The notes under the pieces: model-generated
The model's input: the letters and a program-made list of their open reading frames with translations, nothing else
Databases searched by the model: none
What the model was told of the DNA's origin: nothing
Program-made: the position numbers and the translations under genes
Shown: positions 780 to 11,015 of the stretch, in pieces
Layout of the letters: the number at the start of each line of letters is the position of its first letter
Position numbering within the stretch: the first letter of the stretch is position 1
Assembly (NCBI GenBank): GCA_025774805.1
Contig: JALGZR010000102.1
Coordinates: 1 to 17,184 of the forward strand
Source: a bacterium
GTDB lineage: Bacteria; ARS69
Length of the DNA: 17,184 bases
Direction: 5' to 3'

Positions 780-1132
780 TATACTGATCAAGAAAATTAA
801 TCCGAGGCAGGCCGGCACGGGAGCACGGGGAGCGGAGGCCCGGCCGGAGGGATCCCGGGGACCCGGGGGGGCTGCGGTGACGGCCGGCTCCGGGGGCCGG
901 CCGGGCCGGCGAGGGCGGGTGTCGCGATCGCGCGACCCGGGCGCGCGGGCGAGCGCCGCGGGGGTTCCCCCGGACGGGGTTCCGGTTGGCCCCCCGGGGG
1001 TCCTTGATTAGAGTCTCCTCCGCATCCGCTCGCGCGAGCCGCGTCCCGTCCGAGAGAACTGCCCCCCGATGGGCCGTCTCCGATCCCGAACCCCGGCCGC
1101 CGACCCGCTGCCGCCGCAAAGGCTGGAGAGAG
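780..1132. other. GC-rich divergent intergenic region with hairpins
   Basis: The gap between the DUF2089 start and the glycosyltransferase start spans 729-1132 and has no convincing gene. Open frames across it translate to low-complexity G/P/R/A runs. It holds a perfect 7-bp hairpin (882-888 with 896-902), a 6-bp GTCGCG/CGCGAC hairpin in the 919-935 area, and a near-palindrome of C and G runs at 988-1003. I see no clear promoter for the rightward glycosyltransferase gene here. Confidence 0.5.
892..919 (+). other. Potential G-quadruplex motif
   Basis: Four G-runs occur on the plus strand at 892-896, 903-905, 913-915 and 917-919, with loops of 6, 7 and 1 nt. This fits the usual G3+/N1-7 rule. 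The first run overlaps the right arm of the 882-902 hairpin, so the two structures could not form together. It lies about 215 nt upstream of the glycosyltransferase start. In such GC-rich DNA it could be chance. Confidence 0.35.
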
Positions 1133-2773
1133 ATGCAGGCTAGGGTCCTTCTCGCCGTCGGAACCCTCGTGGCCCTCGGCCTGGCCTGGAGCAACCGATT
1201 CCTCCAGGACGACGCCTACATCGTCTTCCACTACGCGCGGAATCTGGCCGAGGGGCGGGGGCTGACCTGGTTCGGGGAGCGGATCGAGGGATATACCGAC
1301 TTCCTCTGGGTCCTGTGGATCCGCCTGGGGATTCTGTTTCGGGCGGATCCGCCCGCCTGGTCGCAGTTCGGGGGGTTGCTCGCCCTGGTCTGGGTCCTGC
1401 ACTCCTTCTGGCACATCTCGCGGCGGCTCTTCGAGCCGCCGCTCGTGAGCTTCGCCGCCCTCCTCCTCCTCGCTACGAACCACACCTTTTCGTCGTTCGC
1501 GACGGGCGGACTCGAGACCATGCTCCAGACCGCGCTACTCTGCGGCGCGGTCCGGCGCTCTCTGGATCTCCGGGACCGCGATCGCCCGGGGGCCGGGTCG
1601 AGTGCGGCGATCTCCCTGACGCTGGCGGGCGCGATCCTCACCCGAATGGACAGCGCGGTCATCGCCGCTCCCGTCGGCGGGTGGACCCTCGTGCACCTGA
1701 TCCGCCGGCGAGCCTCTCGCGCCGTCCTGGCAGGCTTGATCGCTCCGGGCGCCGGCATCGTGGGCGGCTGGCTGATCTGGAAGCTCGGGTACTACGGACA
1801 CCTTCTTCCCAACACGTATCAGGCCAAGGTCCCGGACGGTCTCTTCCACGACGTCTCCGGTCTTCTCTACGTGCGCCATTTCTTCCAGGAGTACTGGCTC
1901 TGGCCCGTACCCGGGCTGGCCCTCGTCTCCCTGGTGGCGAGGCGGTCCCGCGTCCGGCCGCCGCCGGGGATCGGACTGCTGACGACGATCGCGATCGCCT
2001 GGTTGCTCTACGTCGCGGCCGTCGGGGGCGACTTCATGGAGTTCCGGATGCTGGTGCCGGGACTTCCCTTCCTGATTCTCGTGCTGTTCTGGCTGGTGGT
2101 CGGACCGATCGGGAAGGGGCTCGTGAGGCACCCCCTGGCCACTGCCGCGACCGTCACCGCCCTTCTCGTCGTGGGATCCGTCCAACACGGCCGGAGCTTT
2201 GCGGGGATCCGATCGGGGATCTGGGTCGACAGCCTCGACGAGCTCTCGACCTTCTACGGCGTCTACCCGGAAGAGAGGTGGGACGCGATCGGGACGAAGC
2301 TCGGGCAGGAGCTCGCGGACGCGGATCCGATTCTCGCTCTGGACGCCGTCGGAGCGATTCCGTACTTCAGCCGACTGAGAACCGTGGACATGTGGGGTCT
2401 CAACGACCGCGTGGTTCCGAGGGAGGGGACCGTCCTGCCGGAATCCAATCGACGACCGGGGCATCGACGGCACGCGACGCTTTCCTACCTGAAGGAGCGG
2501 GGCGTCCACCTCGTGATCGGTCACCCGACCGTGGTCGACCCGGCGGACTTCACGCATCCGCGGTGGGACGTCTCGCTGGCGCGGTGGACGCGCGAGATCG
2601 CCATCGGATTCAACCGGGAGGACATCGGAGTGGCCACCCTCGTCGCGATGCCGTTGGAGGAGGGTCGGTCTCTCATGATGTGGAATCTGACGCCGAGCCC
2701 GGCGCTGGACGAGGCGATCGAAGAGCGCGGATGGCTGAGAAGAAGGGTCAAGGTCCCGGACGTGCCGAACTAG
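1133..2773 (+). CDS. GT-C type membrane glycosyltransferase (AftB-like, 546 aa)
   Basis: This is a multi-pass membrane protein with a first membrane segment at residues 5-22, followed by a DD motif at 26-27 (FLQDDAYIVFHYARNLAEG) and ERIEGYTDFLWVL at 49-61. That signature is typical of the GT-C family that includes mycobacterial AftB and related polyprenyl-phosphate-sugar arabinosyl/mannosyltransferases. The two aspartates are the expected catalytic or donor-binding pair. Several more hydrophobic helices run to about residue 360. A soluble C-terminal part follows, with the family-typical ALDAVGAIPYFSRLRTVDMW and GLNDR. The ATG at 1133 is chosen because GGAGAG precedes it and the upstream extension is non-membrane filler. 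It probably transfers a lipid-linked sugar to a surface glycan or protein; the donor and acceptor cannot be told. Its TAG stop lies inside the CTAG at the left end of the first repeat element. Confidence 0.8.
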   Translation: MQARVLLAVGTLVALGLAWSNRFLQDDAYIVFHYARNLAEGRGLTWFGERIEGYTDFLWVLWIRLGILFRADPPAWSQFGGLLALVWVLHSFWHISRRLFEPPLVSFAALLLLATNHTFSSFATGGLETMLQTALLCGAVRRSLDLRDRDRPGAGSSAAISLTLAGAILTRMDSAVIAAPVGGWTLVHLIRRRASRAVLAGLIAPGAGIVGGWLIWKLGYYGHLLPNTYQAKVPDGLFHDVSGLLYVRHFFQEYWLWPVPGLALVSLVARRSRVRPPPGIGLLTTIAIAWLLYVAAVGGDFMEFRMLVPGLPFLILVLFWLVVGPIGKGLVRHPLATAATVTALLVVGSVQHGRSFAGIRSGIWVDSLDELSTFYGVYPEERWDAIGTKLGQELADADPILALDAVGAIPYFSRLRTVDMWGLNDRVVPREGTVLPESNRRPGHRRHATLSYLKERGVHLVIGHPTVVDPADFTHPRWDVSLARWTREIAIGFNREDIGVATLVAMPLEEGRSLMMWNLTPSPALDEAIEERGWLRRRVKVPDVPN

Positions 2774-2927
2774 CCCGGACCATTCATGAACGACCTGCTG
2801 CGATCGCGGATCCGCACCACCGGACGGGCGTCCTCGCGTCTCGCACCCTGCGACGTATCGTTCAGATACGACTCGGGTTCGAGCCCCTGCGGGTGCGCGA
2901 CGGCCCTTCATGAATAGTCCGGGCTAG
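2770..2927. mobile_element. MITE-like structured repeat element, copy 1 (158 bp)
   Basis: The ends are inverted repeats of 21 bp matching at 20 positions: left arm 2770-2790 (starts CTAGCCCGGAC, ends TTCATGAA) and right arm 2907-2927. The interior is non-coding and highly structured: GGACG/CGTCC hairpin (2822-2833), CGTATC/GATACG hairpin (2854-2870), GGGTTC/GAGCCC hairpin (2875-2886), the last two enclosed by a CGCACCC/GGGTGCG stem (2842-2848 with 2891-2897). A second copy lies at 10832-11015. It sits between the convergent glycosyltransferase and peptidase genes. CTAG at both outer edges is either part of the ends or a target-site duplication; being palindromic, the two cannot be told apart here. 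There is no transposase, so any mobility would be in trans. Confidence 0.75.
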
Positions 2928-2930
2928 CCT

Positions 2931-2946
2931 GCATTTCTCACGAGGC
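2931..2946. repeat. Short shared motif GCATTTCTCAC...GAGGC, copy 1
   Basis: GCATTTCTCACGAGGC lies 3 bp right of the first MITE-like element. A close relative, split by 7 extra bases, is at 5748-5770. Both lie just downstream of a leftward gene for a sorting-domain protein. It may be a fragment of another dispersed repeat. Confidence 0.4.
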
Positions 2947-2948
2947 TT

Positions 2949-2963
2949 TGCTGCTGCTGCTGC
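2949..2963. repeat. (TGC)5 trinucleotide repeat
   Basis: Five tandem TGC units lie between the first MITE-like element and the peptidase stop codon. It is short and non-coding on the annotated strand. No function is suggested. Confidence 0.5.
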
Positions 2964-2979
2964 TCGCCGCGCCGATCGG

Positions 2980-4995
2980 CTATCTCGCCAGCACCATTCT
3001 CCGGCGCAGCACCCCGTCCGGACTCACGAGTTGATAGAAATAGACCCCGCTCGCGACGGCCCGCCCCCGATCGTCGGTGCCGTCCCACACGATCGTGTGC
3101 TCACCGGCGGACCGTGAGCCCCGGTCGAGGGTCCGGACCATGCGTCCCCGAACGTCGAAGACGCGCAGGGAGACGGTCGCGGTTCGCGACAACCCGAACC
3201 GGATCCTCGTGAGCGGCCCGAACGGGTTGGGCGTGTTCTGCCCGAGCCAGGCGGGGACCCGGACGGAGAGCGGGTCCGAGACTCCCACCGGGCCCTCCGT
3301 GAAGTCGGCCAGGATCTTGTCCGCCGGGTCCATGACCAATCCGGTCGGCGGGTTCGCCACCTCGAGGTCGAACGTCTGAGTCCGCAGCGAGTCCCACACG
3401 ATGAAGCCCTGGTTCCCGCCCGTCGTCTGCACGCGCACCCGAATGGGCATCTTGTAGATCGGGTAGGACGGCGACTGGACCTGACGGACCCCGAGATGGA
3501 CGGTGTAGGGGCCCGTTCCGCTGGTCGACCAGCCGTATTCGTAGTCGGGCCGCCCCTCCTGATAGACCCAGGGATCGAAGAACCAGTTCAGATCGTCTCC
3601 GTAGACGGCCTCGGCCGCGGCGATCAGGTCCTCCGTGGTGGCATTCCCGTACTCGAAGGCGATGCGGTAGTCGAGAAGGAGCTGGAAGAAGTCCGTGTCG
3701 CCCAGGATCCACCGCAGCATGTGGAGGATCCACGCCCCCTTCTCGTACACGATCGGGTGCCAGACCCAGTCCGGATCGTAGACGGTCCCGCTCCACGGCC
3801 CGTTGTCCATGGCCAGCATGGCGAGCCGGTAGGCCAGGTTGCCGCCGAGATGCCCTTGCCACAGAGCCTCCGCGTAGGACGCGAACCCCTCGTTCAACCA
3901 GACGTGCCGCCAGTCTTCGGCCGTAACGCAATCCCCCCACCACATGTGGGCCAGCTCGTGGACCAGGACCCAGTCATAGGTGTGGTCGCCGGTGATGAGG
4001 CCCTGGGGATAGGCCACGATCGTCTGCTCCTCGACGGCCGGCCCCGGAGGGGTCGAGAACATGCCGTACTTCTCGCCGAGGAACGGATACTCCCCGAAGA
4101 CGGAGGCAAAGTACGTCATTGCCGACACCGTGATGTTGAAGCTCTCGAGCGCGTCCGAGTAGAGCTCGGGATAGACGAAGTGCTGGATGTCGGCCGACCC
4201 GCCCGTTCCGGTGTACGTCTCCTCGATGGTCACGTAGTCGGTGGCGCCGAGGGCGATGAGGTAGGGAGCGACCGGGTAGGCGTGGTCCCAAACGAACGTG
4301 CGCGTGCCGTCCCCGTTGTCGACGTTTGAGCTCAGGATTCCGTTGGAACAGGCAAGCATCGTGTCGGGAACGGTGATCGTGAGGGAAAACGTGCTCTTGT
4401 CGTCGGGAACGTCTTTGCAGGGGCGCCAGTGGTGACTGATGGGAATCACCGTCTCGACGTCGTTCGAGTAGGGAGTGCTCAGGGTATAGACGAGGGGGGT
4501 GCCTCCGTGATCCCCGAAGAGCATCGACTTGTTTCCGATCTGCGGGGGCCTGCCGTGGTAGGCGACGGACACCGAGTGCTGCGATCCGACCGCGGGAGGC
4601 GACGCGAGCGTGACGATCACCTGATCGGTCCTGTGGACGAACGGTCGCGGCGTTCCGTTCACGGTAACGCTGTCGACGGCGAGGCTGTCGGTCAGGTCGA
4701 CGGCCAGCTCGGTCAGTCCGGAGTCCGCCACCGTCACGGTCAGAACGCCGCGTCCGGTGATGGCCTGTCCGGGGAAGTCGACGACGAGCTCCAGATCGAC
4801 GTGATCGACGTCGTAGCCGTAGACCACGTCGCGCTGCCAATCCCGAAGGAAGCGGTCGGGGACGACGCGGGCGAACGCCTCCTCGGATCGCCACAGATAG
4901 CTGCGATCGACGGGAACATCGGGTTCGGCCGTCGCGGTGGCCGCGAGAGCCCCGAGAACAGGGGTCAGAACGGAGATGCCGAGGAGAATGCGGAT
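2980..4995 (-). CDS. Secreted M1-family metallopeptidase with FlgD-like C-terminal sorting domain
   Basis: The frame encodes about 671 residues. After a signal peptide (RILLGISVLTPVLGALAATA, probable cleavage after ATA) comes a beta-rich N-terminal domain. The gluzincin core has HELAHMWWGD (His346, Glu347, His350) and NEGFA with Glu369, so HExxH-18-E is intact for zinc. YEKGA (Tyr417) supplies the expected transition-state tyrosine. In place of the usual GxMEN exopeptidase motif it has GPAVEEQT. The last 90 residues (GQNTPNPFGPLTRIRFGLSR onward, VFDVRGRMVRTL, ASGVYFYQL) form a FlgD/T9SS-type C-terminal domain. The nearest standard start is GTG at 4827, but the 56 codons above it encode the signal peptide and mature N-terminus. 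No ATG, GTG or TTG occurs there before the in-frame TAG at 5043. I place the start at the ATC at 4995, preceded by AGAGAGGG at good spacing. Likely role: extracellular peptide degradation. Confidence 0.85.
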   Translation of the reverse strand: MRILLGISVLTPVLGALAATATAEPDVPVDRSYLWRSEEAFARVVPDRFLRDWQRDVVYGYDVDHVDLELVVDFPGQAITGRGVLTVTVADSGLTELAVDLTDSLAVDSVTVNGTPRPFVHRTDQVIVTLASPPAVGSQHSVSVAYHGRPPQIGNKSMLFGDHGGTPLVYTLSTPYSNDVETVIPISHHWRPCKDVPDDKSTFSLTITVPDTMLACSNGILSSNVDNGDGTRTFVWDHAYPVAPYLIALGATDYVTIEETYTGTGGSADIQHFVYPELYSDALESFNITVSAMTYFASVFGEYPFLGEKYGMFSTPPGPAVEEQTIVAYPQGLITGDHTYDWVLVHELAHMWWGDCVTAEDWRHVWLNEGFASYAEALWQGHLGGNLAYRLAMLAMDNGPWSGTVYDPDWVWHPIVYEKGAWILHMLRWILGDTDFFQLLLDYRIAFEYGNATTEDLIAAAEAVYGDDLNWFFDPWVYQEGRPDYEYGWSTSGTGPYTVHLGVRQVQSPSYPIYKMPIRVRVQTTGGNQGFIVWDSLRTQTFDLEVANPPTGLVMDPADKILADFTEGPVGVSDPLSVRVPAWLGQNTPNPFGPLTRIRFGLSRTATVSLRVFDVRGRMVRTLDRGSRSAGEHTIVWDGTDDRGRAVASGVYFYQLVSPDGVLRRRMVLAR

Positions 4996-5039
4996 GGGCT
5001 GCCCTCTCTTTCTCTGTCGACGGCCGGCGGCCCTTTTCG

Positions 5040-5045
5040 ACTATA
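5040..5045 (-). promoter_or_regulatory. Possible -10 box of the M1 peptidase gene
   Basis: TATAGT (5/6 to TATAAT) reads leftward at 5045-5040, about 45 nt above the proposed start at 4995. No good -35 hexamer lies at 16-18 nt spacing, so support is weak. Its position would put the whole signal-peptide region inside the transcript. Confidence 0.3.
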
Positions 5046-5190
5046 GCGATTCGACGGGCGGATCGCATCCGATCACGCTCCCGGCCCGGTTCTCCGTTTT
5101 TCGCCCATTTTACCCCGGCCGGTGGGTTCTTCCCCCATCCTCCCCGTGGGGAGCGAAACGAATCTCGTCGGTAGACCAAGGAGGCGTTCC

Positions 5191-5730
5191 ATGCGAACCA
5201 TGCGAGCCGCAATCTCGATCGCTTCGGCCCTTGTCGTCCTCGCCGGCGCGACGGCGCCGGACGGCCGTGAACCGGGCGGGGCGGCTCTCGAAGGCTCCCT
5301 CGCCGACTCGGGACCCGTCGCCGAGCACGGAACGTTCACGGGAGAGCTCCTTCCCGTGTTCTTCGTGAGGGACGTCCTCGTGAGCGTCGCCTTCTACCGG
5401 GCGGCGGGCTTCGAGTTGCGCCATTTCTTCGACTACGACTCCGGCGAGCAGGTCCCGGAGTGGACGAAGAGCGAGCCGGCGATCTGGGCGCTGATGGCGG
5501 CGGAAAGCTTCGAGTTCGCCCTTCACCGGACCGTGAATCCGGACGAGCTCGTCGTCGGCGGGATGCGCCACTACTTCCTGGTGGAGGACGTGGATACCCA
5601 CCGCCGGGGCGTCGTCGCCCGCGGCATCGACGCGGGAGATCTGATCGATCGACCCTGGATGCGGTTCTTTTCGGTCACGGACCCCGACGGTCACGAACTG
5701 TTCTTCGGAACGAGACCGGACGAGTCCTGA
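5191..5730 (+). CDS. Exported VOC-fold (glyoxalase/bleomycin-resistance-like) protein
   Basis: The 179-residue product starts with a signal peptide (MRTMRAAISIASALVVLAGA), then a variable linker of about 30 residues. A single vicinal-oxygen-chelate domain follows at about 54-174 (LPVFFVRDVLVSVAFYRAAG; HYFLVEDVD; FFSVTDPDGHELFFGTRP). Two beta-alpha-beta-beta-beta modules are visible. The end of the second, 'TDPDGHELFF', is the usual VOC signature with the acidic residue that often binds metal. The start at 5191 has a strong AAGGAGG 6 nt upstream; a longer frame from 5122 lacks this and would bury the signal peptide. The substrate cannot be told, and VOC proteins are mostly cytoplasmic, so the export signal is notable. 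It is divergent from the M1 peptidase gene. A CTCCCC/GGGGAG hairpin (5140-5153) lies in its presumed leader. Confidence 0.75.
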   Translation: MRTMRAAISIASALVVLAGATAPDGREPGGAALEGSLADSGPVAEHGTFTGELLPVFFVRDVLVSVAFYRAAGFELRHFFDYDSGEQVPEWTKSEPAIWALMAAESFEFALHRTVNPDELVVGGMRHYFLVEDVDTHRRGVVARGIDAGDLIDRPWMRFFSVTDPDGHELFFGTRPDES

Positions 5731-5747
5731 CGGACCCTGACGAGCCC

Positions 5748-5770
5748 GCATTTCTCACCCGTCACGAGGC
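5748..5770. repeat. Short shared motif GCATTTCTCAC...CACGAGGC, copy 2
   Basis: GCATTTCTCAC (5748-5758) and CACGAGGC (5763-5770) match the motif at 2931-2946, with 7 additional bases between the shared halves. It lies in the convergent gap between the VOC and FG-GAP genes. A small CCGTC/GACGG hairpin (5777-5794), 7 nt past the FG-GAP stop, could act as a weak terminator but lacks a U-run. Confidence 0.35.
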
Positions 5771-5801
5771 CGGCCGCCGTCCCCGGGGAGACGGATCGAC
5801 T

Positions 5802-7541
5802 TCAGAGCACCACGACCTTCACGGTCGTGCTCCGCCTCCCCACGGTGAACCGGGCGAAGTAGACCCCTCCGGCGACACGGGAGCCGTCCCTTCCGGTGGC
5901 CTGCCACTCCCACGTGTGCAGGCCGTCGGACAGGGGTCCGTCGTGCAGGGTGCGGACCTTGCGTCCGCTCACGTCGAAGATGGCGAGCTCGGCGCGCCGG
6001 GCACCGTCCCCCCGATAGTGCAGGACCGTCGCATGGCGGACCGGATTCGGCCTCACCTGAATAAACCCCGCCGTGGAGGCGAGATCCTCCGCGGAAACCG
6101 CGCTTCCCGTGTTCCGGAAGAGGTAGTTCCCCTTGTTCGAGTCCCAGTTCGTGATGCCGAGATCGAGATCGGCCGAGTAGGTGTAGCGGACCTCGATCCG
6201 CTCGCCGAGCCCGGGCGGAGTGGCCAGGGACAGCCAGCCGCCCCCGAGGTGTTCGACGTAAGCGGTCGGGGGAAGGGGCGTGCCGTTCACGGTGACCTCG
6301 TCCACCGAGCGAACGGGACTGCGGCCGAGCTTGACGTAGGTGCGGGCGCCGTCGCCGCCGGCGACGGTGACTCCGTCCGAGCGCAGATCGTCGTTGTCGA
6401 CGTCTCCCCAGAACATGTTCTCGATCACGCTGCTCGTGCTGCTCGTCCAGGCGGCGGTCACCCCGAGGGCGCCCCCGAAGTTCTCGTAAATCCTCGCGGG
6501 GTCCCACCAGCGGCCCGCGCCGAGATCGGCGTCCCCGTCGAAGTCGACGTCCACCCAGGACACGTGCGACCCGTAGTCCGAGGACAGGGACTGCCACACG
6601 GGGAACGCCGACAGCGTCCCCAGCGTGTTCTCGTAGACCTTGAACCGCCCCGATCCTCCCTCCTGGAAGTTGTCCGCCACGGCGAGTTCGGGATAGCCGT
6701 CGTGGTTCCAGTCGCCGAGCGCGGCGGTGTTGCCGTACTCGGGCGCGTCCGAGCTCTGCCAGTCGGCGGAGTCGGGCAGTCCGCCGCCGGCGGTCTGGCG
6801 ATTCAGGTAGAGCCGGTTCGCACCGATGATGCCGCAGAAGAGAAGGTCCTGATCCCCGTCGAGATCCACGTCGTCCCACGTCACGTCGAGGGCGTAGGCC
6901 GAATCCGGCTCCTGCCACGAGGGCGTCGCCTCGAAGGTCCCGCCGATGTTGTAGAAGACCATGGAGCGCTCCGGCCGCCCCGTGTAGGACTCTCCGGCCG
7001 CGCAGGCGAGGTCGAGGTCCCCGTCGCCGTCGGCGTCGCCGAGAGCCACCGAGAAGCAGTACATGCGGATGCCCGACACCCAGACCGGAGAGGCGATGTA
7101 CGCTCCGGCGCCGTCGTTCAGATAGAGCTTCGCCTGACCGGGCTGGCTGAATCCGTTGAGACCGAGATAGACGCCCACCACGAGGTCGGGGAGATCGTCG
7201 CCGTTGACGTCCCCCACGTCGAGATGGCCGTTGTAGTCCCGGTCACCCGAGACCCACGCGGGCGTGAGGGGCAGGGTGCCGTCGCCGTTGTTGTAGTAGA
7301 TGACGACGCGCTGTCGCGAGATGTCGTTCCCGTTCGCGACCACCATGTCGAGCCAGCCGTCCCCGTTCACGTCCGACCAGGCCCCGCCCGTCGCCACGTA
7401 GCCCTCGGGCGTCGACGTCCAGGCGGGAGTCGTCTCGAGGGGAATCACGGCACGCGTGGCCCCCGCGGGGAGCAGGAGCGATGCGATCAGGAGAGAGGCG
7501 AGAACGGGGGGAGTCTTGGCGGTGAGCCGGTCGGTGAGCAT
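5802..7541 (-). CDS. Secreted FG-GAP/VCBS repeat protein with C-terminal sorting domain
   Basis: This 579-residue protein has a signal peptide (PPVLASLLIASLLLPAGATR, cleavage probably after ATRA). About seven FG-GAP/VCBS-type repeats follow with Ca-binding-like Asp loops: DVNGDGWLDMVV, DVNGDDLPDLVV, DADGDGDLDLAC, DVDLDGDQDLLF, DWNHDGYPELAV, DVDFDGDADLGA and DVDNDDLRSDGV. Together these suggest one seven-bladed beta-propeller. A linker leads to a C-terminal FlgD-like domain (RPNPVRHATVLHY, IFDVSGRKVRTL, VAGGVYFARF), the same type as in the M1 peptidase, so both likely use one export and anchoring route. The ATG at 7541 has AAGGAG before it; the upstream in-frame ATG at 7601 lies within the likely promoter. 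Function is probably surface binding or adhesion, and the ligand is unknown. Confidence 0.85.
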   Translation of the reverse strand: MLTDRLTAKTPPVLASLLIASLLLPAGATRAVIPLETTPAWTSTPEGYVATGGAWSDVNGDGWLDMVVANGNDISRQRVVIYYNNGDGTLPLTPAWVSGDRDYNGHLDVGDVNGDDLPDLVVGVYLGLNGFSQPGQAKLYLNDGAGAYIASPVWVSGIRMYCFSVALGDADGDGDLDLACAAGESYTGRPERSMVFYNIGGTFEATPSWQEPDSAYALDVTWDDVDLDGDQDLLFCGIIGANRLYLNRQTAGGGLPDSADWQSSDAPEYGNTAALGDWNHDGYPELAVADNFQEGGSGRFKVYENTLGTLSAFPVWQSLSSDYGSHVSWVDVDFDGDADLGAGRWWDPARIYENFGGALGVTAAWTSSTSSVIENMFWGDVDNDDLRSDGVTVAGGDGARTYVKLGRSPVRSVDEVTVNGTPLPPTAYVEHLGGGWLSLATPPGLGERIEVRYTYSADLDLGITNWDSNKGNYLFRNTGSAVSAEDLASTAGFIQVRPNPVRHATVLHYRGDGARRAELAIFDVSGRKVRTLHDGPLSDGLHTWEWQATGRDGSRVAGGVYFARFTVGRRSTTVKVVVL

Positions 7542-7571
7542 GGGGGTCTCCTTGGGCGCAGGTGCTCTTCG

Positions 7572-7601
7572 ATGATACCCGAAGGAGAGAGCCCGAACCA
7601 A
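7572..7601 (-). promoter_or_regulatory. Promoter of the FG-GAP protein gene
   Basis: On the minus strand TTGGTT (7601-7596) is followed after 18 nt by TATCAT (7577-7572, 5/6). Transcription would begin near 7565, about 24 nt before the ATG at 7541. Confidence 0.45.
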
Positions 7602-7642
7602 CCGGCTCCCCGGAGTCGGTGCTCGCGATCCCGCGACGAAGA

Positions 7643-7662
7643 ACCGGTCGGGGCCGACCGGT
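7643..7662 (-). terminator. Terminator-like hairpin after the symporter gene
   Basis: A perfect 9-bp inverted repeat ACCGGTCGG/CCGACCGGT with a 2-nt centre begins 8 nt past the symporter stop codon. On the minus strand it is followed by TCTTCGTC, a poor U-tract, so termination efficiency is uncertain. It separates the symporter from the FG-GAP gene. Confidence 0.45.
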
Positions 7663-7670
7663 CCGATCGG

Positions 7671-9128
7671 TCACGGGCGCGACTCCTCCCGATCCGGCGG
7701 GAGCAGGCTGATCAGCAGGATGGCGGCGGCGGAGCAGAGAAAGGCGGGAATGAGCTCGTAAATCCCGGTGGGCTCCTTCAACCAGAGCCTCCACCCGACG
7801 GTCACGACGGTACCGAGGATCATGCCGACGACGATGGCGAGACGTCGGGTCCTCTTCCAGTAGAGCGAGAAGATCACCGCGGGACCCAGGGATGCCCCCA
7901 GTCCTCCCCAGGCGAAGAGAACCAGCCAGAACACGAGATCGTGGGCGAGGTAGGCGAGGATCAGAGCCAGGCCGCCCGAGATCAGAACGACAATCCGGCT
8001 GACCCGCAATCGCTGCGCCTCGGCGATCGCCTCCCGCTTCTTCAGGATCTTCTCGTAGACGTCTCGAACGAACGTCGACGCCACGACGAGAAGCTGGGAG
8101 TCGGCGGTGGAAAGGATCGCCGCGAACACGCCTCCGACGAGCAGTCCGTAGAGAGCCGGTCCGAAGAAGTGGGAGGAGAGGACGAGATAGACCATCTCCG
8201 AGTCGGCGTTGGGGAGGTCCTCGCTCCGCGGCACGATCGCTCGGCCGAGCAGACCGATGAGCACGGCGCCGAAGCCCAGCACGACGTTCCACAGCGTGCC
8301 GACGACGGCGGCCGGCCGCAGGTTTCTCGGATCGTCGATGGACATGTAACGGACGAGGATGTGCGGTTGCCCGGGAGAGCCCAGACCGATGCCCAGGAAT
8401 CCCACGATGGCTCCGAGTCCCACCGAGCGGGGATCCAGGTATCCCGGGTCGAGGCCGGTGAGGATCTCGCGCAACACCCGCTCCCCCCCGAGCTGCGCGA
8501 GGCCGACCGCCGGCAGAACGACGAGCCCGATCAACATGATCACGGCCCTCAAGACGTCGTTGTAGGCGACCGCGATGTAGCCCCCGAGGACGACGTAGAC
8601 CAGGATCAGCCCCGCGGAGATCAGGAGACCGGCGGCGGGACCGATGCCGAACGCACTGCTCAGCGTCTTCGCTCCCCCCGAGAGCTGCGCCGACACGTAG
8701 GCGGTGATGAAGATGCCGATGATGATCGCGCCCACGACTCGGATCACCTGCCTCGTGTCGCCGGTGCGCGTCTCGAAGTAGTCCAGAAGGGTAATCGAAC
8801 CGTACTCCTCCGTTCGCGCCCGGAGACGTCTTCCGATGTAGATGAATTGGAAGAACTCCACGGTCGTGTAGCCGAGAATCGCCCAGACCGCACCGGCCCC
8901 CATCGTGTAGGCCATCCCGCTGACGCCGAGAACCAGCCAGGCCGACCTTCCCGAGGAGACGGCGGACAGGGCCACGACGAAGCGGTTCATGGCCCGACCC
9001 CCCAGGAAGAAGTCGGACTGCGATCGCGTTCGTCCGAGCGTGAGGAAACCCACGAGGACCGGCAGGAGCAAGGTCACGAGGAACACCGCGAAAGCGAGCG
9101 GGTGGGCGAGCTTCTCGTACGCGTTCAT
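7671..9128 (-). CDS. PutP-like sodium:solute symporter (SSS family)
   Basis: The product is 485 residues and hydrophobic throughout, with about 13 membrane helices, as in PutP. It carries FLGGR (41-45), the TM2 motif LSAVSSGRSAW (54-64), ITLLDYFETR (112-121), GQPHILVR (253-260) and AAILSTADSQLL (336-347). Ala337, Ser340 and Thr341 fall at the same numbers as the sodium-site residues of E. coli PutP. The C-terminus GIYELIPAF also matches PutP. Proline is the best guess, but SSS members vary in substrate. The gene is divergent from the pyrimidine locus, so uptake of a pyrimidine or beta-amino acid is possible but unsupported by the protein itself. The ATG at 9128 has GAGG close upstream. Confidence 0.85.
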   Translation of the reverse strand: MNAYEKLAHPLAFAVFLVTLLLPVLVGFLTLGRTRSQSDFFLGGRAMNRFVVALSAVSSGRSAWLVLGVSGMAYTMGAGAVWAILGYTTVEFFQFIYIGRRLRARTEEYGSITLLDYFETRTGDTRQVIRVVGAIIIGIFITAYVSAQLSGGAKTLSSAFGIGPAAGLLISAGLILVYVVLGGYIAVAYNDVLRAVIMLIGLVVLPAVGLAQLGGERVLREILTGLDPGYLDPRSVGLGAIVGFLGIGLGSPGQPHILVRYMSIDDPRNLRPAAVVGTLWNVVLGFGAVLIGLLGRAIVPRSEDLPNADSEMVYLVLSSHFFGPALYGLLVGGVFAAILSTADSQLLVVASTFVRDVYEKILKKREAIAEAQRLRVSRIVVLISGGLALILAYLAHDLVFWLVLFAWGGLGASLGPAVIFSLYWKRTRRLAIVVGMILGTVVTVGWRLWLKEPTGIYELIPAFLCSAAAILLISLLPPDREESRP

Positions 9129-9178
9129 CGTCCTCGGCGGCCGGGCACGGAGGTCGGCACGGAAGGTGGACGGTCGAG

Positions 9179-9207
9179 ATGATAACGGTCCGGACCGGAA
9201 CTGAGAA
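9179..9207 (-). promoter_or_regulatory. Symporter promoter with palindromic operator candidate in the spacer
   Basis: On the minus strand TTCTCA (9207-9202, 4/6) is followed after 17 nt by TATCAT (9184-9179, 5/6). Transcription would start near 9172, about 44 nt before the ATG. The spacer holds a perfect 12-bp palindrome, CGGTCCGGACCG (9186-9197), placed where a repressor would block RNA polymerase. Confidence 0.45.
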
Positions 9208-9300
9208 CCGTACGGAGCGTCGGCCGGGCCTTGCCCGCCCCCTCGCTGGGAGCGCGGGTTTCAACCTCTCCCTTCCCAACGACTTCCCGGACCGGCGCCC

Positions 9301-9329
9301 TTGTCGCCGGTTCCCGACTGGTGTAGCCT
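9301..9329 (+). promoter_or_regulatory. Possible promoter of the pyrimidine catabolism locus
   Basis: TTGTCG (9301-9306) and TAGCCT (9324-9329) are separated by 17 nt and lie 45 nt before the dehydrogenase ATG. Matches to consensus are only 4/6 and 3/6, so this is tentative. Confidence 0.3.
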
Positions 9330-9374
9330 GACTCCACTCTGGGAAAACGCCCCGCGAGCGCGAGGAGGTACGGC

Positions 9375-10835
9375 ATGGCAGTGGAGAGCGCGGTCGAGAC
9401 GCTGCGGAACTACGTGAACGGCGAGTGGATCGACGCGGCGGCGGGTGAGACCCGGGAGGTTCGAAACCCGGCCACCGGGGAGGTGATCGGACGCGTCCCG
9501 ATGGGCGGAGCGGCGGATGTCGACCGGGCGGTCCGGGCGGCGGCCGAGGCCTACGAAGCCTGGCGGCGAGTGCCTCCCGTCGAGCGGGCGCGATACCTGT
9601 TCAACCTGAAATTCCTCCTCGAGGAGAGAGCCGAGGAGCTCGCCCGCGTCGTGACGCTCGAGAACGGCAAGACGTTTCACGAGTCCCGGGGAAGCGTGAG
9701 GCGGGGAATCGAGTGCGTCGAGGTGGCGAGCGGGGCGCCGTCGTTGCTGATGGGCATGGCCATCGAAGACGTCGCGGCGGGGATCGACTGCGAGTCGATC
9801 CGGCAGCCGCTCGGCGTGTTCGCCTGCATTGCCCCGTTCAACTTTCCCGCCATGGTTCCCCTCTGGTTCTATCCGTTCGCCGTCGTGTGCGGAAACACCT
9901 TCGTGTGCAAGCCGTCGGAGCAGGTGCCCCTCAGCCAGAGGTTTCTCTTCGAGCTCGTGCACGAGGCGGGCTTTCCGCCCGGCGTCCTGAACCTCGTGAA
10001 CGGGGGGAGGGAAGCCGCGGACGCCATTCTCCGGCACCCACAGGTGTGTGGCGTCTCGTTCGTCGGCTCGAGCCCGGTCGCGAAGCACGTCTACGAGACG
10101 GCGGCCGCCCACGGGAAGCGCGTCCAGGCGCTCGGCGGCGCGAAGAACTTCCTCGTCGTGATGCCCGACGCCGACATGGACAAGGCGCTCGACTCGATCA
10201 CCGAGTCCGCCTACGGCTGCGCCGGAGAGCGCTGTCTCGCGGGAACGGTCGTCTTGGCGGTCGGAGAGAGCCACGGCGCGGTCCGCGAGGGGCTCGCGAA
10301 GCGCGCCCGCGCCCTGAAGGTCGGCGACGGAGCGAAGGAGGGGGTCGAGATGGGGCCCGTCATCTCGGAACCCCACCGCCGTCGTGTCCTCGGTTACATC
10401 GAGAAGGGGATCGAGGAGGGGGCGGATCTCGTCGTCGACGGCCGGGAGAACCCCGCCGATCCGGCCGGCTACTTCCTCGGCCCGACCCTCTTCGACCGGG
10501 TCACCCCCGACATGGTCATTGCGCAGGAGGAGATCTTCGGACCGGTGCTCGGGATCGCCCAGGCCGAATCGCTCGATTCCGCGCTCGAGATCATCCACGC
10601 CCATCCCCTCGCGAACGCGAGCTCCATCTTCACGACGAGCGGGAGGCACGCGCGCGAGTTCAAGTACCGCATTGAGGCGAGCATGACCGCGGTGAATCTC
10701 GGCGTCGCGGCACCGATGTCGTTCTTCGGATTCGGCGGTGCGAAGGGCTCGTTCTTCGGCGATCTGAAGGCCCACGGCCGGGAGGCGTTCGACTTCTTCA
10801 CCGACAAGAAGATCGTCATCTCGCGCTGGTCCTAG
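9375..10835 (+). CDS. mmsA: CoA-acylating (methyl)malonate-semialdehyde dehydrogenase
   Basis: This 486-residue aldehyde dehydrogenase superfamily protein has PFNFP with catalytic Asn156, GSSPVAKHVYETAAAHGKRV (231-250), LGGAKN (253-258) and GCAGERC with catalytic Cys287. LGGAKN replaces the usual Glu-containing ALDH motif, a mark of the CoA-acylating MmsA group, which lacks the general-base glutamate. The enzyme converts malonate or methylmalonate semialdehyde with CoA and NAD+ to acetyl-CoA or propionyl-CoA plus CO2. Next to the pyrimidine genes it fits the final step for beta-alanine (from uracil) and beta-aminoisobutyrate (from thymine). The ATG at 9375 has AGGAGGT upstream. The TAG stop lies inside the CTAG at the left edge of the second repeat element, which separates this gene from the next by 230 nt. 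Confidence 0.9.
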   Translation: MAVESAVETLRNYVNGEWIDAAAGETREVRNPATGEVIGRVPMGGAADVDRAVRAAAEAYEAWRRVPPVERARYLFNLKFLLEERAEELARVVTLENGKTFHESRGSVRRGIECVEVASGAPSLLMGMAIEDVAAGIDCESIRQPLGVFACIAPFNFPAMVPLWFYPFAVVCGNTFVCKPSEQVPLSQRFLFELVHEAGFPPGVLNLVNGGREAADAILRHPQVCGVSFVGSSPVAKHVYETAAAHGKRVQALGGAKNFLVVMPDADMDKALDSITESAYGCAGERCLAGTVVLAVGESHGAVREGLAKRARALKVGDGAKEGVEMGPVISEPHRRRVLGYIEKGIEEGADLVVDGRENPADPAGYFLGPTLFDRVTPDMVIAQEEIFGPVLGIAQAESLDSALEIIHAHPLANASSIFTTSGRHAREFKYRIEASMTAVNLGVAAPMSFFGFGGAKGSFFGDLKAHGREAFDFFTDKKIVISRWS

Positions 10836-11015
10836 CCCGGACTACTCATGAATGATCTGCTACGATCGCGGATACACGCCACCGGACGGGCGTCCTCGGG
10901 GTCCGTACCCTGCGACGTATCGTCGAGATACGCCTCGGGTCCGGACCCCTGCGGGTGCCCGCCCGGTGGGCGTCTCCGCAATCTCGCGACGATCTTCATG
11001 AATAGTCCGGGCTAG
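10832..11015. mobile_element. MITE-like structured repeat element, copy 2 (184 bp)
   Basis: The terminal inverted repeats are 10832-10852 and 10995-11015 (20 of 21 match); the right arm is identical to that of copy 1. Conserved inner parts are the GGACG/CGTCC hairpin (10884-10895), the CGTATC/GATACG hairpin (10916-10932) and the GGGTCC/GGACCC hairpin (10937-10948), the last two enclosed by GTACCC/GGGTGC (10905-10910 with 10953-10958). It is 26 bp longer than copy 1, the extra sequence lying near the right end. It sits between two co-directional genes of one pathway, so it would be transcribed and could fold as a terminator, attenuator or RNA-processing site. Confidence 0.75.

Follow-up and report, generated by a model that had tools for sequence, protein, structure and literature searches.

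Two copies of a palindromic MITE, very probably of the IS1380 family, and its preference for CTAG sites

The stretch of DNA analysed here (17,184 nucleotides, called the window) contains two copies of a short non-coding element, which raises the question of what kind of element this is and which transposase, if any, has moved it. The original prediction described the copies as MITE-like and suggested that they were either passengers of a transposase acting in trans or a domesticated structured repeat, of a family which was not recognised. A family name can now be given: the elements are with high probability a non-autonomous MITE of the IS1380 family. They are short, have no transposase gene, carry terminal inverted repeats, are present in many copies and have inserted at sites found empty in relatives (the last for copies in Nitrospira). 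The features of the window are as follows, family 1 being the family of the two copies and family 2 a sister family; the CTAG tetranucleotides are listed as target copies, which is how they are best read.

1098..1143, minus strand: solo family 2 end; its ATG (1133-1135) starts the ORF ending at 2773
2770..2773, plus strand: CTAG target copy, left of copy 1; TAG 2771-2773 terminates the upstream ORF 1133-2773
2774..2923, plus strand: MITE copy 1, 150 bp without target copies, with a 26 bp internal deletion relative to copy 2
2850..2874, minus strand: apical core of copy 1, GAGTC-hairpin-GTCGC, by comparison with the cores of other elements
2924..2927, plus strand: CTAG target copy, right of copy 1, common to the adjoining sister-family end
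2924..2969, plus strand: family 2 element end, CTAGCCTGCATTTCTCACGAGG..., immediately next to copy 1
10832..10835, plus strand: CTAG target copy, left of copy 2; TAG 10833-10835 is the stop of the aldehyde-dehydrogenase-like gene 9375-10835
10836..11011, plus strand: MITE copy 2, complete, 176 bp excluding target copies, an almost perfect palindrome
10912..10936, minus strand: apical core of copy 2, GAGGC-GTATCTCGACGATAC-GTCGC, conserved in other phyla
11012..11015, plus strand: CTAG target copy, right of copy 2

Counted with the target copies, copy 1 (2770-2927) is 158 bp and copy 2 (10832-11015) 184 bp long, and the difference of 26 bp is an internal deletion in copy 1. Terminal inverted repeats of 21 bp had been predicted and were recovered on recomparison: the ends 2770-2790/2907-2927 and 10832-10852/10995-11015 are each self-complementary at 20 of 21 positions, the right arms of the two copies are identical, and dinucleotide-preserving shuffles of the window gave 0 matches as good as the ends of the two copies. 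The common interior with scattered substitutions holds as well, the left 130 bp of the copies matching at 85%, and so does the structured nature of the element; the 184-bp copy 2 folds into a single hairpin across its whole length with a folding energy of -119.6 kcal/mol (z -11). The observation is confirmed, with one correction to the boundaries. The flanking CTAG at either end is most plausibly duplicated target, which leaves 2774-2923 and 10836-11011 as the elements proper, with inverted ends of 17 bp.

The joined flanks of Nitrospira copies were searched against 29 genomes of that genus, and about eight insertions had an uninterrupted orthologue in which one tetranucleotide is present at the empty site and two at the filled site (for example gtccCTAGCC..GGCTAGgagt filled and gcccCTAGgagt empty). 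These empty orthologous sites show true insertion for the Nitrospira copies, as distinct from the two copies of the window. The target flanking both ends is YTAR, i.e. (C/T)TA(G/A), mostly CTAG, and CTAG is found on both sides in 59 of 125 elements. The left and right tetramers are neither equal nor symmetric in 53 of the 125; pairs such as ATAG/CTAT and GTAG/CTAC occur. Since the tetramers often differ, a duplication of 4 bp is not proven and a 2-bp duplication of TA is not strictly excluded.

Two copies in the window had been taken to mean many in the genome, and this proved correct. The 5.1-Mb genome has 62 family 1 ends with at most 3 mismatches against 0 for a reversed control pattern, and it carries dozens of full or partial copies, with a canonical full length of 184 bp, though copies are often internally shortened (67-158 bp). 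The sister family, family 2 (ends TAGCCYGCATTTCTCACCAGG, about 181 bp), is commoner with 155 ends genome-wide, and one of these abuts copy 1 with the CTAG in common. A search of 1.1 Mb of the genome, which assumed TA-flanked inverted repeats only, returned almost solely families 1 and 2. Another inverted-repeat family, the third, has TAG ends (TAGCCTTGATCTTCCGGAAA, 198 bp) and was seen at G000:C105:14267-14464 (L315). There are also minimal palindromes of 33-35 bp which consist of two head-to-head ends (L067, L081, L088, L123, L125 and L163); some of them end a gene, and they are possibly products of internal deletion. One copy (L050, G000:C261:26149-26283) has palindromic flanks, CCATGGCGG-CTAG...CTAG-CCGCCATGG, which indicates insertion at the centre of a pre-existing palindrome. 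An IS110-like transposase frame lies within another copy (L151:830-2184), the palindrome of which seems to be its target; as it sits inside an element we read it as a secondary insertion and reject it as the mover.

The exact family 1 end was searched for in 84,980 genomes and found at at least 116 places. The matches listed come from Nitrospira, Planctomycetota, Myxococcota, Desulfobacterota, Gamma- and Zetaproteobacteria, Eisenbacteria, Krumholzibacteriia, Acidobacteriota, Armatimonadota and others, and where the contig permits, most of those listed are paired with a second end at a distance of about 160-230 bp, most commonly 181-186 bp. Most of the records are MAGs, and lone unpaired matches should not be over-read. 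The number of ends in 19 carrier genomes ranges from 2 to 140. In four further genomes from the taxonomic family of the window the exact end had no match, and the distribution is therefore patchy. Viral and plasmid collections contain almost no copies; an 18-base exact match, TAGCCCGGATTATTCATG, was observed on four plasmids of one Persicobacter strain (CP012860, CP012862, CP012863 and CP012865).

In each of the two window copies the left TAG serves as stop codon of the gene upstream (2771-2773 and 10833-10835). This placement is frequent. With a codon-usage gene finder run on 1.11 Mb of the same genome 200 ends were scored; a gene runs towards the end within 300 bases at 111 of them, in 59 of these 111 the gene stops at the TAG within that end's tetramer, and only 3 of the 200 ends are inside genes. 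Seen from the genes, 62 of about 840 called stop codons (about 7%) lie in an element end, 60 of them TAG, one TAA and one TGA, and the 60 make up a part of 265 TAG stops. CTAG is itself under-represented, with 265 occurrences against 871 expected from trinucleotides in 1.1 Mb. The 163 CTAG without an element are divided between stop codons (66), other non-called sequence (61) and genes (36). A preference for stop codons beyond CTAG is unneeded, as the 59 stop-codon ends among about 110 elements (a number estimated from the 200 ends) compare with 66 of 127 non-genic free CTAG; CTAG targeting suffices to account for the placement, provided that insertions within genes are lost. CTAG is seldom found within coding sequence and occurs often as ...C-TAG where genes end, and because a duplicated target would preserve the TAG, an insertion at a stop codon would be harmless. 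The surviving copies would hence lie in intergenic positions, where they frequently form the 3' end of a gene. At a Nitrospira site (L377:570-2187, G008:C39) an IS1182-family element lies in the CTAG stop codon of a gene and is followed immediately by a TAGCCCGCATTATTCATGAC element, which is related to this MITE; other IS families hence use the same sites, and that stop codon has been used repeatedly.

The ORF 1133-2773 encodes a membrane protein (MQARVLLAVGTLV...) with its ATG inside the solo family 2 end and its stop in the CTAG of copy 1, so that repeats may provide the start as well as the stop of this frame. Family 2 supplies the start codon of 12 genes against 7 and 3 in control frames, which is too weak for a claim.

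At the apex of the hairpin both families of this genome have the motif (C)GAGGC-hairpin-GTCG. Allowing at most 1 mismatch per side it is present in 26 of 82 other elements against a mean of 3.9 (maximum 8) in shuffled palindromes, a count to be taken as supporting evidence only, the pattern having been defined after inspection. When 25 elements of several phyla, selected for bearing the motif, were aligned, all 11 consensus pairs showed double changes. Within the window's own genome the pairs near the ends, 11-15 among them, change mostly on both sides and interior pairs mostly on one. Such pair changes could be explained alike by selection on structure, by constraints from the transposase or by palindrome-correcting mutation.

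The alternative of a domesticated repeat has to be weighed against these observations. It holds that the element is now a structured RNA or a hairpin of the 3' UTR which selection maintains as a terminator or as an mRNA 3'-end element, and that mobility explains its origin only, so that it can be held alongside the IS1380 reading. The strength of the hairpin (z -11), the apical core with compensatory changes across several phyla, the two-sided changes in the terminal pairs and the many copies directly 3' of stop codons all fit. However, the availability of CTAG explains the placement, copies are often internally deleted, presence and absence vary between relatives, quasi-palindrome correction can also keep palindromes paired, and an Rfam search with the element gave no match to a known RNA family. 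We consider this alternative rather unlikely. Domestication as the original prediction had it may still apply to the conserved apex, but the empty sites show past mobility. A further suggestion, offered tentatively, is that one MITE lineage has spread among many phyla while keeping the apical GAGGC-hairpin-GTCG structure, possibly for a function in transposition at the DNA level or as RNA at the 3' ends of genes whose stops the elements supply.

Which transposase could have moved the elements? The predicted passenger of a transposase in trans is made likely by matching ends on IS1380 elements. In a Krumholzibacteriia MAG with 43 ends (L399) the start codon of an IS1380 transposase (DDE_Tnp_1_4) is 97 bp from ...TTCATGAATAATGCGGGTTAA, an end which agrees with the family 1 end at 16 of 17 positions, and in a Myxococcota MAG with 117 ends (L404) TAGCCCGGATTATTCACGAG is followed by an apparent IS1380-like gene start at the contig edge. 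IS1380 elements on named plasmids have the ends CCCGTCTTATGCACGA, CCCGTCGTATTCACC, CCCGCCTTATTCACC and CCCGGATTTCTCATGA between copies of CTAG or CTAA. The named IS1380 element ISPa33 has CTAA directly repeated (CTAA|CCCGGATTTCTCATGA...|CTAA) and is identical to family 1 at 14 of 16 positions at both ends; the MITE is found at the same CTAG, CTAA and TTAA sites as IS1380 elements, with a duplication of either 2 or 4 bp. The window's own genome has only one IS1380 remnant of 131 aa, without ends, and no complete IS1380 element with exactly the family 1 ends (CCCGGATTATTCATGAA) was recovered from the genomes searched. It also counts against the IS1380 reading that PF13701 has a match in only 7 of the 20 genomes searched, and that IS5-, IS1182- and IS630-type elements use CTAG-type targets too. 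Multi-copy ISs commonly break assemblies; several of the ends searched are at contig edges, and the MAG of the window may miss such ISs. A non-autonomous MITE may also have lost its intact partner, a partner in the same genome being usual and not required.

Other transposase families can be compared on the same points. An IS630/Tc1-mariner MITE would insert at the TA inside CTAG with a 2-bp duplication of TA; the TA at the centre of the target and end pairs such as those given above would suit it, and so would the preference of IS630 for TA in CTAG reported by Tenzen and Ohtsubo (1991), as cited in PMC2170065. But DDE_3, the IS630 transposase, is absent from the window's genome, just 6 of 19 carrier genomes have it and none of them has it with these ends, and the matching ends are on IS1380 instead, which makes an IS630 origin very improbable. 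The window's genome also has no Y1, DDE_Tnp_1 or DUF4096 transposase, and the DDE_3, DDE_Tnp_1 and DUF4096 genes of the other carriers examined do not have these ends as their own. An origin from IS5/IS1182-type elements (DDE_Tnp_1, DUF4096) was rejected, as the own genome has none and those in a Nitrospira genome use CTAG with other ends. On a Nitrospira contig (G008:C16, L346-L365) two TA-flanked repeats were noted, TAGGAGCCTGTCCGAGTAAT (135 bp), which matches IS1182-type ends of the same genome, and TAGGGAAGGTCTGATTAATT (104 bp), which matches IS5-type ends. A repeat of the REP/BIME type, mobilised by a RAYT (Y1) transposase, would likewise be palindromic, intergenic and of high copy number, with solo palindromes of the 33-35 bp kind, but with no Y1_Tnp in the genome, target-site copies at both ends, precise empty sites and no one-sided GTAG-type tag of REPs it is extremely improbable.

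For the IS1380 reading the following mechanism is proposed. An IS1380-family transposase acting in trans would recognise the inverted ends CCCGGAYTATTCATGAA and excise the element, presumably by cut-and-paste chemistry, and the element would be inserted at a YTAR tetranucleotide, preferably CTAG, leaving one copy of the tetranucleotide on each side. We infer that an IS1380 transposase moved the particular copies in the window. This would be a simple route to harmlessness, with a target that is rare in genes, common at stops and duplicated so that the stop survives. With about 7% of the called genes in 1.1 Mb ending in elements, 3' ends are shaped on a genome scale, and the elements are a potential source of error in annotation and assembly.

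MITEs are a known kind of element, and in the literature searched, which was covered in part, we found neither a description of an IS1380-derived MITE nor the end sequence ATGAATAATCCGGGCTA; this family provisionally appears to be undescribed there. The closest known systems are the IS1380 family ISs (ISPa33, ISSp1 and ISBdi2), which like the window elements have CCCG..TT.TCA-type ends and YTAR (mostly CTAG) flanks, but these encode a transposase (about 1.6 kb), whereas those of the window measure 150-176 bp, are non-coding and form a palindrome over their entire length. A 100-nt MITE of Pseudomonas syringae, MITEPsy1, likewise duplicates CTAG or YTAA; its ends, unlike those of the window elements, resemble ISPsy2 (GGAAGGTCTGA...), and well conserved copies are reported only from P. 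syringae pathovars (PMC3189936). ERIC/RU-1, Correia/NEMIS and RUP are likewise intergenic MITEs of about 100-160 bp with inverted repeats, a stem-loop and terminal TA (PMC2229807), but have other ends, a narrow host range each, TA and not YTAR as target, and no link to IS1380. YPAL/RU-2 of Yersinia is also an intergenic palindromic element, of about 168 bp, with empty and filled sites, and is reported as possibly affecting upstream transcripts; it differs in that its duplications span 3-26 bp and its termini lack TA (PMC2229807). The bacterial MITEs which we found described have narrow host ranges, whereas the ends and core of the present one can be recognised in many phyla.
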